64,000 nt of DNA. Origin: an uncultured Candidatus Melainabacteria bacterium (GTDB taxonomy: Bacteria; Cyanobacteriota; Vampirovibrionia; Gastranaerophilales; Gastranaerophilaceae). The notes beneath the pieces were generated by a model. The model was not told the DNA's origin and did not search any database. It saw only the letters and a list, made by a program, of their open reading frames with translations. The stretch's first letter is position 1. Every line of letters begins with the position of its first letter. Below, in pieces: positions 5,863 to 62,985 of the stretch. A program made the translations under genes and the position numbers. The stretch lies in contig CATLFB010000002.1 in the NCBI GenBank assembly GCA_949927415.1, forward strand, positions 62,001-126,000. The letters run 5' to 3'.

Positions 5863-7602
5863 TTACTTTCGTTTTTTAATCAGCGAATATTTCCGGCCTT
5901 GCCCCAGAACCTCGATTTTCACAGCTTTTTTTATCGCCTCCAAATCGTCGTTCTTCACAATAATACGCAGATTCTCGTCCTCAAAAAGATCATCTATTAT
6001 ATTGTAATAATCATCAACATAAAAATCGACCTGACCGCCGTAATAGTAATACACGGAATATCTTTTTCCGAAACCGACAGTCGCCAAATCATTCCCCTGC
6101 CTTTTTGCAAACTCAGCCATCCGCATCAAATCATTCTGCCCGAATTCGTAATCCATCAGGAAAAACAACCGGTACCCCCATGCCGAAAGCACCGTCATAA
6201 ACGCAATATATAAGGCAAAAAGACCTAACCTGTTTTTCTTTCGAAGCATTACAACCGACGCAATCCCGAAAACAAAAACCAGAATTATACAAAACCATTT
6301 TATAATCAAAAAGTCATCATAAATCATCTGCGGCAGTACAAATTTAGCAAACAGAGTTACAAATGCGGCAACAATACAAACGCCTGAAAAAATCCATGCA
6401 GTAAGATTGATTGCTTTTTCACAAACGCCTTTTTCTATATAATCTCTCCAGACAAAAGCCAGAATCAAAGCGGAAAAAGGATATACCGGCAAAATATATG
6501 TAATGAGTTTTGTACTCGAAACCGAGAAGAAAAGCATTATAAATCCGAAAGCGATTGATGCAAAAAGCAAAAGTTTTTGCGCGTCTGTCAGAGTTTCAAA
6601 GTCGAAATTTTTCAAGGGATTGAATTTTGAAATCATGGATTTTAAATTGCCGGCTTTTTGCGATTTAATTTCTGCAATCAGTGAAGAAAATTTTGAAGAA
6701 GAAAATTTTTCTTTGATTTTGCAAACCGCAGCCGCGATTGCCGAAAAAGTCCACGGCAAAAATCCCCACAGAAATGTCATCAGCATAAACCATACAGGCT
6801 GTTCTCTTCCGAGAGTTTCAGAGCCTTTAAACCTTCCGAGATGGTGCAGGATGATATATTCGTCAAAAAATCTCGGATGGTGAAGATTCAACATAATCGC
6901 ATGCCATGGAATAACTATAAGGAAGAACAAAATCCAGCCAACGCAAAAATATTTCGGCTTAAAGATTTCCTTAAATCTTCCGCTCACAATTGAGATAAAA
7001 AACATTGTGCCAAAAGGGATTACGAACCCCGGAATCCCTTTTGCCATCACGGCAAGTGCGGAAAATATGTAAAAAAGCCACCAGAAATATTTTTTATTAT
7101 CTTCCTTGCAAAAATAAGTCATAAATCCGAAAATCGTCGAAAATGCCGTGCAAACAGCAAGCACGATATCAAGAATTGCAAATTTGGAAAGGATTACAAA
7201 TTCCATGCTTGTTGCAAGGATTAGGGCGGAAATTACGCCGAAACTTTTTGACACGATTTTTCTTCCCGCAAAATATACAAGAAAGCAAGAAAGCATTCCG
7301 TACAGTGCAACCGGAAACCTTGCGCTGAATTCGTTTATCTTACCCCAGAATGCAAATGAAATGCATTCGCCCCAAAAATACAAAGGAGGTTTTTCAAAGA
7401 AATAATCGCCGTTTAGATAAAGCGAAAGAAAATCTTTGCTGTTGAACATTTCTCTTGCGATTCCGACATATCGAGTCTCATCAACATCCATCAAAGGGTA
7501 GTTCCCGATATTGTGGAAAAATATAAAATAAAACAGAACAAGCATTCCCAAAATAGTACACAAATCCGGATGTGCTTTAAAAAAATCTGTAATTTTCTGC
7601 AT
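5863..7602 (-). CDS. ArnT/PMT-like membrane glycosyltransferase
   Basis: This 579-residue protein has about a dozen membrane helices and the first-loop signature YPLMDVDETRYVGIAREM with the catalytic Asp-Glu pair of the GT-C fold (PMT/ArnT, GT39/GT83). Such enzymes transfer a sugar from a polyprenyl-phosphate donor to lipid A, a protein or a surface polymer on the outer face of the inner membrane. The conserved EKPPLYFW motif follows near residue 70. A soluble C-terminal tail of about 90 residues is present. No lipid A modification genes are nearby, so the acceptor is unknown. Confidence 0.85.
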   Translation of the reverse strand: MQKITDFFKAHPDLCTILGMLVLFYFIFFHNIGNYPLMDVDETRYVGIAREMFNSKDFLSLYLNGDYFFEKPPLYFWGECISFAFWGKINEFSARFPVALYGMLSCFLVYFAGRKIVSKSFGVISALILATSMEFVILSKFAILDIVLAVCTAFSTIFGFMTYFCKEDNKKYFWWLFYIFSALAVMAKGIPGFVIPFGTMFFISIVSGRFKEIFKPKYFCVGWILFFLIVIPWHAIMLNLHHPRFFDEYIILHHLGRFKGSETLGREQPVWFMLMTFLWGFLPWTFSAIAAAVCKIKEKFSSSKFSSLIAEIKSQKAGNLKSMISKFNPLKNFDFETLTDAQKLLLFASIAFGFIMLFFSVSSTKLITYILPVYPFSALILAFVWRDYIEKGVCEKAINLTAWIFSGVCIVAAFVTLFAKFVLPQMIYDDFLIIKWFCIILVFVFGIASVVMLRKKNRLGLFALYIAFMTVLSAWGYRLFFLMDYEFGQNDLMRMAEFAKRQGNDLATVGFGKRYSVYYYYGGQVDFYVDDYYNIIDDLFEDENLRIIVKNDDLEAIKKAVKIEVLGQGRKYSLIKKRK

Positions 7603-60401: not shown

Positions 60402-60911
60402 CTAATTTCCATCAAAAATCTCCAAATTTTCTCTCTCATGCTCTTTGAGAATTCTGTCAATCTCGTCGCGCGCCTCAAGCTTTGATTTCAGTTCGCGCTG
60501 TTCAATTCCGTACTTCTTGCAAAGCCGCTCATAGTAATATTTTTGCTTCTTTGTCGCTTCTTCATGGCTCATTTTCACTTCACGCAAAAATGCCCGCTTC
60601 TTCTTTTCAAACTCCTTTTGCGCCTGAATTATCGGCTCCTGAGACTTTCTGTAATCGTAATATTTCCGGCATTCTTTCAAATACATCAGGGCTTCTTTTC
60701 GAAAATCATCTTCATCCAAATAGTTTTCCAAAAATTCAAAATGCGGATTGTTAATCTCAAAATAATATCTTTCATCTTCGACAAAATCATCGAAAAGCTT
60801 GACTATATCTACATCCGGCGACTTTTTTACTAACGCACGCAAAAAATTACACAGCGCTGATTTCTGTGTTTTTGTCATGCTTTGAAAAATTTGGTTTTTA
60901 ATATTGTACAT
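60402..60911 (-). CDS. Unknown helical protein upstream of DUF3137
   Basis: I do not recognise this 169-residue protein. It begins with a small helical region (LCNFLRALVKKSPDVDIVKLFDDFV). After about residue 85 it is a continuous highly charged coiled coil (IQAQKEFEKKKRAFLREVKM, ATKKQKYYYERLCKKYG) to the end. The start at 60911 follows the TAG of the 55-residue gene by two bases, so translation is coupled. A DNA- or protein-binding role is possible. Confidence 0.65.
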   Translation of the reverse strand: MYNIKNQIFQSMTKTQKSALCNFLRALVKKSPDVDIVKLFDDFVEDERYYFEINNPHFEFLENYLDEDDFRKEALMYLKECRKYYDYRKSQEPIIQAQKEFEKKKRAFLREVKMSHEEATKKQKYYYERLCKKYGIEQRELKSKLEARDEIDRILKEHERENLEIFDGN

Positions 60912-60913
60912 AC

Positions 60914-61081
60914 CTACTTTTTGAATAAGTCTTTCACAGAGAAAGTTTCAGCCTTCTCAAGATGGAATTGTGCGAGTTTTTTGACAATCGGATTGGTCTG
61001 GAGTTTCGCCTTTGTTTCTTTTTCAGGCTTAACCTCCTGCGCTGTCTTGTTTTCTATCACAGTGAATTCTCTCTTGTCCAT
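60914..61081 (-). CDS. 55-residue charged protein, first gene of the prmC operon
   Basis: The frame runs from the ATG at 61081 to TAG at 60914. It is rich in Lys and Glu (FTVIENKTAQEVKPEKETKAKLQ), ending KLAQFHLEKAETFSVKDLFKK, and looks like a short helix-forming polypeptide. AGAGGTATAAT lies upstream; the TATAAT sits only 8 bases before the ATG. It is coupled to the 169-residue gene by a two-base gap. It is not recognised in any family and is short enough to be missed by gene finders. Confidence 0.55.
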   Translation of the reverse strand: MDKREFTVIENKTAQEVKPEKETKAKLQTNPIVKKLAQFHLEKAETFSVKDLFKK

Positions 61082-61263
61082 AGTCAAAATTATACCTCTT
61101 TATATTTATATAAAAAAGTTTGTAAAGATTTTATTGCTCTGAATCTCATATAAAACGTATATAAATTTACATAATTTAACAAATTTATCTTTTTTTGTTT
61201 TTTGCATATAATAGAATTCCGCGAAAAAATGATTGGAATAGGGAAGATAAAATAAAGTAGCGA

Positions 61264-61347
61264 AAAAGAAAGTCTCGTCAATTGACAAGACTTATAAATA
61301 TACATTTACCCCACACATGTTATAACACAGAAAAACTTTGTTGTCAA
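61264..61347 (-). promoter_or_regulatory. Promoter followed at once by a terminator (attenuator or small RNA)
   Basis: Reading leftwards: TTGACA (61347-61342), 17 bases, TATAAC (61324-61319). After about 20 bases comes the hairpin AGTCTTGTCAATTGACGAGACT (61292-61271) followed by TTTCTTTTT. The transcript would be only about 50 nt unless readthrough reaches the prmC operon at 61081. Confidence 0.55.
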
Positions 61348-61433
61348 GCAGTTTATTTACAAATATTTTGCGCGGCGCGGACGGGGCGAAATTACCCGGT
61401 CAGGTAAGACTGAATGAGTGAAAAATCTGCTTT

Positions 61434-61700
61434 TGTAGAAAAAGCTATATTTCTGTAGAAAACTTTGTAGAATACTGTAGAAAACTCATGAGTTTTCTAC
61501 ATAATATCCTCCAAATGGATTAGACCGGTTAGTTATCTACAAAGATGTCAAAAGTTTTCTACAGAATTTTCTACCGGAAAAACCTGCGTCGTTAAATAGT
61601 TTCAGAGAGTTTTCTACAAATATTGACAGCTTACTACTACTATTAATTATATTATTATATATATTATAATAATATATAATAAGAGATTTAATGTAGAAAA
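61434..61700. other. oriC: Candidate chromosomal replication origin (oriC)
   Basis: Ten copies or near-copies of TTTTCTACA/TGTAGAAAA lie at 61434, 61454, 61466, 61476, 61493, 61533, 61555, 61567, 61610 and 61692. The boxes at 61476 and 61493 form a perfect 26-bp palindrome. A DnaA-trio-like tract and a 42-bp all-A/T stretch follow (61631-61682). dnaN starts at 61864. The boxes differ by one base from the cyanobacterial DnaA box TTTTCCACA. Confidence 0.7.
61631..61682 (+). other. DnaA-trio-like tract and AT-rich unwinding element
   Basis: TTA CTA CTA CTA TTA at 61631-61645 has a complement reading 3'-AAT GAT GAT GAT AAT-5', five successive (G/A)AT trios. It starts 12 bases after the DnaA-like box at 61610-61618. 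Bases 61641-61682 contain only A and T. Confidence 0.6.
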
Positions 61701-61863
61701 CCAAAGAACGAAAAACTGAAGGGTTTTTGGGATACGGAAATTTAGGAATAATCAAAGTTTCGGTTAGTTTCGTGAATTTTTGTTTTATTTTTTTGTTTTA
61801 ATTAGTTTTTAAAAGGTGTTTATTATATAATTTTCTTATGGTTTACAGAAAAAGGAGTAAGGT

Positions 61864-62985
61864 ATGAAATTTTTTGTCAAAAAGGAAGATTTATATAACG
61901 GGATAAAAATCGTAGAACGTGCAACAAGCATGAAAGCTTTGCAGCCGGTGCTTTTGAACATACTTATAGAAACAGTTGACAAAGGTACAATCAGACTTGT
62001 CGCAACGGATTTGGATTTGACAGTTGTAGCGCTTGTCGATGCGCAGGTTGAAGTTGAAGGCAGGATTACACTTCCTTCAAAGACGCTTAACGAGATAGTT
62101 TCAAAGCTCGGCGATAAACTTATTACATTCGACATGAACGAGGGTGAAACGGTTGTAAATATCACTTGCCAGAACTCAAAGTTTGATATAATCGGTATTT
62201 CGGCAAACGAATTTCCGCCGGAAGTGTATAATGTTGAAACAAATGACGAAAACAGTTTTGACATTGCAATCAAACCTTTGAACAAAGCTGTTCGACAAGC
62301 CGGATTCGCAGCAGCCGGCTATGAATCCTCAAACCTTTTATCAGGTATAGTTTGTGACATTTCAGGCGATGTTTTGGAAATTGCATCAACTGACGGAAAC
62401 CGCCTTGCGCGCGTTCGTGAAAAAATCGAAAACAAAGACGGACGCACAAGCCAGCTTATTATTCCGTCAAAAACCCTGAACGAGTTTACGAAAATGAGCG
62501 CATTTATTGAAGAAGAATCTGTGAAAGTTTACACAGAGCGCACAAAAATGATTATCAAAAGCGAAAGAACAATGACTGTTTCAAGACTACTTGAAGGCCA
62601 GTATCCGAAATACAACCAGCTTATTCCGAACGAAAGCCCGAAAGAAGCGCTTGTTAGTGTAAGTTCTTTAATTTCAGCGCTTGAACGTGTTTCGATTATG
62701 GTTAACGACAAAACAAGCATTGTTAAACTTGCGTTTTCACAAGGAAAACTGAAACTTACAGCTGACACACCCGACAGCGGTAAATCTGAAGAAGAACTGG
62801 AAATTGTTTATAATTCTGAAGATTTGGATATTGCATTCAACTACAAGTTTGTTCTTGAGGCTTTGAAAAACATGGATTGCGACAATGTCAAAATCGGTTT
62901 GAACACAAGTTTATCAGCAACAGTTTTGCGTCCGGATTGCGAAGATGATTTTGTTTGCTTGATTATGCCGGTTCAAATCAGATAA
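61864..62985 (+). CDS. dnaN: DNA polymerase III sliding clamp
   Basis: It forms the dimeric ring that tethers the polymerase to DNA. The 373-residue protein has three clamp domains. The N-terminal KFFVKKEDLYNGIKIVERAT, the middle FAAAGYESSNLLSGIVCDIS and the C-terminal YKFVLEALKNMD, with the closing VCLIMPVQIR, are typical. AAAAGGAG precedes the ATG. It lies immediately downstream of the candidate origin. dnaA is not in the window. Confidence 0.97.
   Translation: MKFFVKKEDLYNGIKIVERATSMKALQPVLLNILIETVDKGTIRLVATDLDLTVVALVDAQVEVEGRITLPSKTLNEIVSKLGDKLITFDMNEGETVVNITCQNSKFDIIGISANEFPPEVYNVETNDENSFDIAIKPLNKAVRQAGFAAAGYESSNLLSGIVCDISGDVLEIASTDGNRLARVREKIENKDGRTSQLIIPSKTLNEFTKMSAFIEEESVKVYTERTKMIIKSERTMTVSRLLEGQYPKYNQLIPNESPKEALVSVSSLISALERVSIMVNDKTSIVKLAFSQGKLKLTADTPDSGKSEEELEIVYNSEDLDIAFNYKFVLEALKNMDCDNVKIGLNTSLSATVLRPDCEDDFVCLIMPVQIR

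Follow-up and report, generated by a model that had tools for sequence, protein, structure and literature searches.

A putative replication origin at dnaN in Candidatus Gastranaerophilales, with an altered DnaA box and a lysine at DnaA residue 433

Where does chromosome replication start in Candidatus Gastranaerophilales, and which word does the initiator read there? The question is raised by a cluster of short repeats upstream of dnaN in the window, that is, the whole 64-kb stretch of DNA that was analysed (G000:C2:62001-126000, from the 2.18 Mb, 22-contig genome G000). This gut lineage belongs to the class named Vampirovibrionia or Melainabacteria, non-photosynthetic relatives of Cyanobacteria. 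The close relatives of the window's dnaN (73-93% identity) come mostly from Candidatus Gastranaerophilales, with one from a Cyanobacteria bacterium. The cyanobacterial oriC at dnaN uses the box TTTTCCACA (PMC4674748).

Box cluster and unwinding module upstream of dnaN

Between 61434 and 61700, upstream of dnaN, ten sites match TTTTCTACA, seven of them exactly and three with one mismatch, which agrees with the ten exact or one-mismatch copies within 270 bases counted in an earlier, sequence-only reading of this DNA. The anatomy of the region, as observed, is the following:

61434-61442, minus strand: exact DnaA box TTTTCTACA (word search of window and genome)
61454-61462, minus strand: exact DnaA box TTTTCTACA (word search; invariant in the ten-genome alignment)
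61466-61474, minus strand: one-mismatch box TATTCTACA (word search)
61476-61501, no strand: perfect 26-bp palindrome TGTAGAAAACTCATGAGTTTTCTACA, made of two exact facing boxes, 61476-61484 (minus) and 61493-61501 (plus) (word search; pair conserved in ten genomes)
61533-61541, plus strand: one-mismatch box TTATCTACA (word search)
61555-61563, plus strand: exact DnaA box TTTTCTACA, first member of a tandem pair (word search; alignment)
61567-61575, plus strand: one-mismatch box TTTTCTACC, second member of the tandem pair (word search; alignment)
61610-61618, plus strand: DnaA box TTTTCTACA adjoining the unwinding module (word search; alignment; box-spacer-trio search)
61619-61630, no strand: 12-bp spacer from box to DnaA-trios, of the same length in most relatives
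61631-61645, minus strand: five DnaA-trios, 3'-AAT GAT GAT GAT AAT-5' (trio definition from PMC8287927)
61641-61682, no strand: 42-bp tract of 100% A/T that overlaps the final trios and is a candidate DNA unwinding element
61692-61700, minus strand: exact DnaA box TTTTCTACA, past the A/T tract (word search)
61864-62985, plus strand: dnaN, encoding the DNA polymerase III beta clamp (in the order, 111 of 117 genomes have a homologue)

The boxes point leftward at 61434, 61454, 61466 and 61476, and rightward at 61493, 61533, 61555, 61567 and 61610. In the ten-genome alignment, the two facing boxes, the two tandem boxes and the module of box and trios all stay in register. Outside the cluster, the window holds only three exact copies of TTTTCTACA, which are scattered, and seven of the 57 exact copies in the whole genome lie in the cluster, after which come pairs separated by about 400-500 bp. 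Across the genome as a whole, TTTTCTACA shows no enrichment (57 copies versus 98 for the reversed control word), and under a Poisson model at least seven exact copies in 267 bp have a probability of 1.6e-19, which becomes about 1e-15 when corrected for all windows. The earlier statements that two boxes form a perfect palindrome and that the window has no other such cluster were both borne out, and the genome-wide count that had been proposed as a check found no equally dense cluster anywhere else. The cyanobacterial word TTTTCCACA occurs once in the window, at the distant position 7512 and never inside the cluster, and its 45 genome-wide copies are scattered.

The basal unwinding system was described as a box, a spacer whose length peaks at 10-13 bp and trios with the consensus 3'-GAT-5' (PMC8287927). 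Its criteria, a box, a spacer of at most 16 bp and at least three DnaA-trios, are met here by the 12-bp spacer and the five trios, opposite which the plus strand reads TTACTACTACTATTA. By searching the whole window with the exact TTTTCTACA box, the sole box-spacer-trio match was obtained at 61610. When any base was allowed at box positions 5 and 6, 55 of 96 dnaN-upstream regions gave a match, whereas the block shuffles used as background averaged 0.3 and never exceeded 4; the commonest spacer was 12 (34 of 58 matches). The layout of a box cluster and a DnaA-trio module at dnaN is conserved across much of the order. Among the features of an oriC, both a unique dense box cluster, in the lineage's own word, and an A/T-rich element beside the boxes are present; of those of the cyanobacterial type, the position at dnaN is met and the box TTTTCCACA is not.

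Two further observations concern this neighbourhood. A stretch of about 60-70 bp upstream of the boxes (window 61260-61329, AAAAAGAAAGTCTCGTCAATTGACAAGACTTATAAATATACATTTACCCCACA), which includes the imperfect palindrome AAGTCTCGTCAATTGACAAGACTT, is nearly identical among the genera g1, g2 and g4, and an Rfam search of 60900-62000, this stretch included, gave no family match. Second, distant DnaN-like genes (22-30% identity) are scattered across the family, on G025:C3, G048:C22, G085:C3, G053:C5 and G083:C5.

Residue 433 of DnaA and box position 6

The single dnaA gene lies on a different contig from the window (G000:C1:252586-253980), and its product matches the DnaA C-terminal domain PF08299 with 81.3 bits versus a cut-off of 31.5. 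Residues 399, 423, 432-435, 438 and 439 contact the bases of the box, and the 433-434 pair is highly conserved (PMC5043019); residue 433 is classed as base-contacting (PMC5043019, PMC7561715). In the window genome's DnaA, the recognition helix reads K-K-H-T-T, as opposed to R-D-H-T-T in E. coli (1j1v), M. tuberculosis (3pvp) and B. subtilis (8btg). Arg399, His434, Thr435 and Thr436 are retained, and the expected Asp-His pair is replaced by Lys-His. Lysine also occupies the position of E. coli Asp433 in most sampled members of the order and class. In the window's genus, Pro423 (to Glu) and His439 (to Tyr) are also changed. The Asp-His pair is a common feature and not a requirement of DnaA, the Thermotoga maritima protein being also without it. 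The trio-capturing residues known from B. subtilis, namely N187, I190, R202, K222 and E228 (PMC10721633), are kept in the window genome and most of the order, so that the single-strand reading would be old and the change confined to the double-strand address word.

Residue and box were compared in genomes sampled across the order, class and phylum, including 13 from other classes, by counting all TTWTnnACA sites near dnaN (in the dnaA region for some genomes). With Asp433, position 6 was C at 66 of 81 sites. With Lys433, it was T at 293, A at 111 and C at only 13 of 439 sites (T or A at 404/439), part of the A6 count being background, as the pattern read backwards is also A-rich. Asn433 went with C6 at 24/34 sites, mostly with G5 (TTTTGCACA), and the repeats of one Gln433 genome, TATCAACA, have A6. 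Fisher's test of C versus not-C between Asp and Lys gave p = 3e-55, with sites that are not independent. When only trio-anchored boxes were taken, C was found at 4/4 for Asp, T at 36/38 for Lys and C at 2/2 for Asn. In the other classes, all 13 genomes have Asp433, and where a cluster was visible the boxes were mainly TTTTCCACA or TTATCCACA; within the order, most genera combine Lys433 with TTTTCTACA, and families f2-f4 have an otherwise canonical GGRKHTT.

A lineage-specific change at box position 6, suggested from the sequence alone, is upheld by these counts, with C6 in the sister classes and T6, sometimes A6, in Gastranaerophilales. The accompanying prediction of a matching change in DnaA was fulfilled by Asp433 to Lys on inspection of domain IV; this change reaches beyond the lineage, most of the sampled class having Lys.

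As judged from these sequences, the residue-base association is strong in count but weak in independent events. A DnaA tree built without domain IV yielded no more than three independent pairs, each of them concordant or neutral, and the phylogenetic sign test on these three pairs was not significant and was unable to reach 0.05. Because only about three independent changes are available, a causal link is likely but not proven. Chemically, the amino group of C could give a hydrogen bond to Asp, as it could to Asn, and Lys could serve as donor to T (at O4) or A (at N7); this is an inference, as is the proposal that the base at position 6 was determined by the change at 433. On balance, we lean slightly towards residue 433 as a naturally occurring switch of specificity at positions 5-6 of the box (Asp with C6, Lys with T6 and sometimes A6, Asn with C6 and G5, Gln with A6), which would amount to a class-wide rewritten initiator-origin code, orthogonal to that of other bacteria.

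The site could also be an origin with DnaA-bound boxes in which Lys433 is a bystander, T6 having arisen from other changes in domain IV or from A/T-rich drift. The few independent events, the differences at Pro423 and His439 in the window's genus and the A6 boxes among Lys433 genomes all leave room for this. However, families f2-f4 keep Pro423 and GGR-HTT, change only Lys433 (besides Tyr439, common to D433 Cyanobacteria) and still have T6; the Asn433 clade, nested in equally A/T-rich Lys433 lineages, has C6; and C8 of the box stays fixed whereas C6 varies. A bystander role is considered unlikely, without being dismissed.

Several genomes depart from the common pattern. In genus g13 (L071, L072 and L073, upstream of dnaN), the boxes mix TTTTGAACA, TTTTCTACA, TTTTATACA and TTTTAAACA, with Lys433 yet never C6; A6 is frequent and goes with G5. 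The possibility that TTTTGAACA is a separate motif in this genus was rejected, as its copies lie among those of TTTTCTACA and TTTTATACA with identical spacings, and it was counted as an A6 box. At L194 (the single-contig genome G118, Gln433), five copies of TATCAACA lie 336-473 bp upstream of dnaN. At L083 (G097, genus g19), DnaA has Arg433 and Gln435, and the trio-adjacent box TTTTCTGCA carries an additional base change at position 7. No cluster was found at dnaN in g5, g14 and most of f9 (Lys433 or Arg433), nor in the Thr433 family f12. In g5 (L019, L030, L064 and L065; Lys or Arg433, Pro435), neither a recognisable box cluster nor trios occur upstream of dnaN, and either the origin may have been relocated or the box word altered again. 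L075 (G106, genus g14) has seven copies of GGGGTAAA upstream of dnaN, with DnaA boxes of the usual type absent. Thr435 to Pro was rejected as the cause of altered boxes, since g10, g15 and g21 have Pro435 yet keep TTTTCTACA copies.

Location of the replication start

The position of the site was compared with the switch in strand bias by using a change-point model of codon-position-3 bias on sampled stretches from four genomes, with a permutation control. In G031, the best break was observed at 313,108, about 0.8 kb from the boxes (313,844-314,007), with an R2 gain of 0.526 versus a permutation maximum of 0.059. In G013, of a distant family, the break at 259,446 lies about 3.5 kb from the site at 262,915 (0.789 versus 0.102), and in G053, of the window's genus, the values were 135,893 and 144,455, 8.6 kb apart (0.205 versus 0.100). 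For the genome that holds the window, no change point rose above permutation and no strand asymmetry was detectable, so skew is uninformative there; cumulative GC skew, whose minimum had been proposed as a check in the earlier reading, was flat and noisy, with no usable signal. The stretch G000:C2:1-246000 is without the replication strand bias that its relatives G031 and G013 show strongly. Rearrangement, assembly mixing or an altered replication mode are candidate causes. Irregular skew can go along with DnaA-independent replication in Cyanobacteria (PMC7198777); as against that case, boxes, trios and DnaA are all conserved in the present lineage. An origin at dnaA was rejected, as no box cluster lies beside that gene.

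This lack of skew, the link between irregular skew and DnaA-independent replication in some Cyanobacteria (PMC7198777) and the placement of the cluster in the dnaN upstream region would fit a DnaA-bound regulatory or titration site for dnaN, with replication starting elsewhere. Such a site is improbable, given the box-spacer-trio module and A/T tract, the change of strand bias close to the corresponding site of three relatives and the absence of a second cluster from the genome. That the repeats are operators of an unrelated dnaN regulator, with DnaA uninvolved, is hardly tenable: their word differs from the standard box and inverted repeat pairs are typical of dimeric repressors, but the word is one base off the cyanobacterial box at the homologous locus, DnaA-trios are adjacent, the place is conserved across the order and the arrangements are both direct and inverted.

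The site is very probably the chromosome replication origin, the replication start itself being inferred; the location at dnaN, as first proposed, is supported by the order-wide box/trio module and by the strand switch 0.8 to 9 kb away in three relatives. The explanation that we hold with good confidence is that the region is the oriC of Candidatus Gastranaerophilales and that DnaA and box changed together, although binding, unwinding and the setting of position 6 by residue 433 are all inferred. Against it stand the missing strand asymmetry of the window's own genome, the 8.6 kb distance in G053, the small number of independent residue and base changes, the further altered recognition residues of the genus, the Lys433 genomes without a cluster at dnaN and the A6 boxes of g13. 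Accordingly worded as a proposal, domain IV of DnaA would bind the TTTTCTACA boxes; from the box at 61610-61618, a DnaA oligomer would extend over the 12-bp spacer onto the minus-strand trios at 61631-61645 and open the A/T tract at 61641-61682, where the helicase would be loaded. Lys433 would go with T6 in place of C6, initiator and boxes having been altered jointly at a position that is almost invariant among the bacteria compared.

Significance and known systems

The oriC, the DnaA box, the trios and the location at dnaN are already known. In the open-access literature, subscription papers being outside the search, no account was found of a Melainabacteria origin, a T6 box, a Lys433 DnaA or a class-wide association of the last two. 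Both the core of the DnaA box and its reader, the Asp-His pair, have been described as highly conserved, and a class in which residue and base are both changed constitutes a natural experiment on the rewriting of an essential protein-DNA contact that recurs many times at one locus. The residue rules are directly testable with short proteins and oligonucleotides, and the finding suggests orthogonal initiator-origin pairs for laboratory replicons. Furthermore, locating the origin in uncultured gut bacteria is useful for metagenome-based estimates of growth rate, and origin finders that rely on TTATCCACA or TTTTCCACA may miss or down-score such origins.

Among known systems, the cyanobacterial oriC of Synechococcus elongatus, Anabaena PCC 7120 and Cyanothece 51142 (PMC4674748, PMC7198777) is similarly placed at dnaN, away from dnaA, with a cluster of 9-bp boxes that start with TTTTC and end with ACA, and an A/T-rich stretch; it differs in having C6 and Asp433, where T6 and Lys433 are found here. 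The basal unwinding system of Bacillus subtilis and most bacteria (PMC8287927, PMC10721633) shares the box, the 12-bp spacer, the 3'-GAT-5' trios and the trio-capturing residues, whereas the double-strand box word and residue 433 differ. In Campylobacterota (Epsilonproteobacteria), one core base of the box is likewise changed lineage-wide (PMC5043019), but the change, to T, is at position 5 instead of 6, and Asp-His 433-434 is kept. Finally, the origin of Thermotoga maritima, with 12-bp AAACCTACCACC boxes (PMC10316083), also combines a non-standard box with a DnaA without Asp433 (aligned N-R-S-H-P), although its recognition residues and box length diverge far more, and the change is not confined to a single position.
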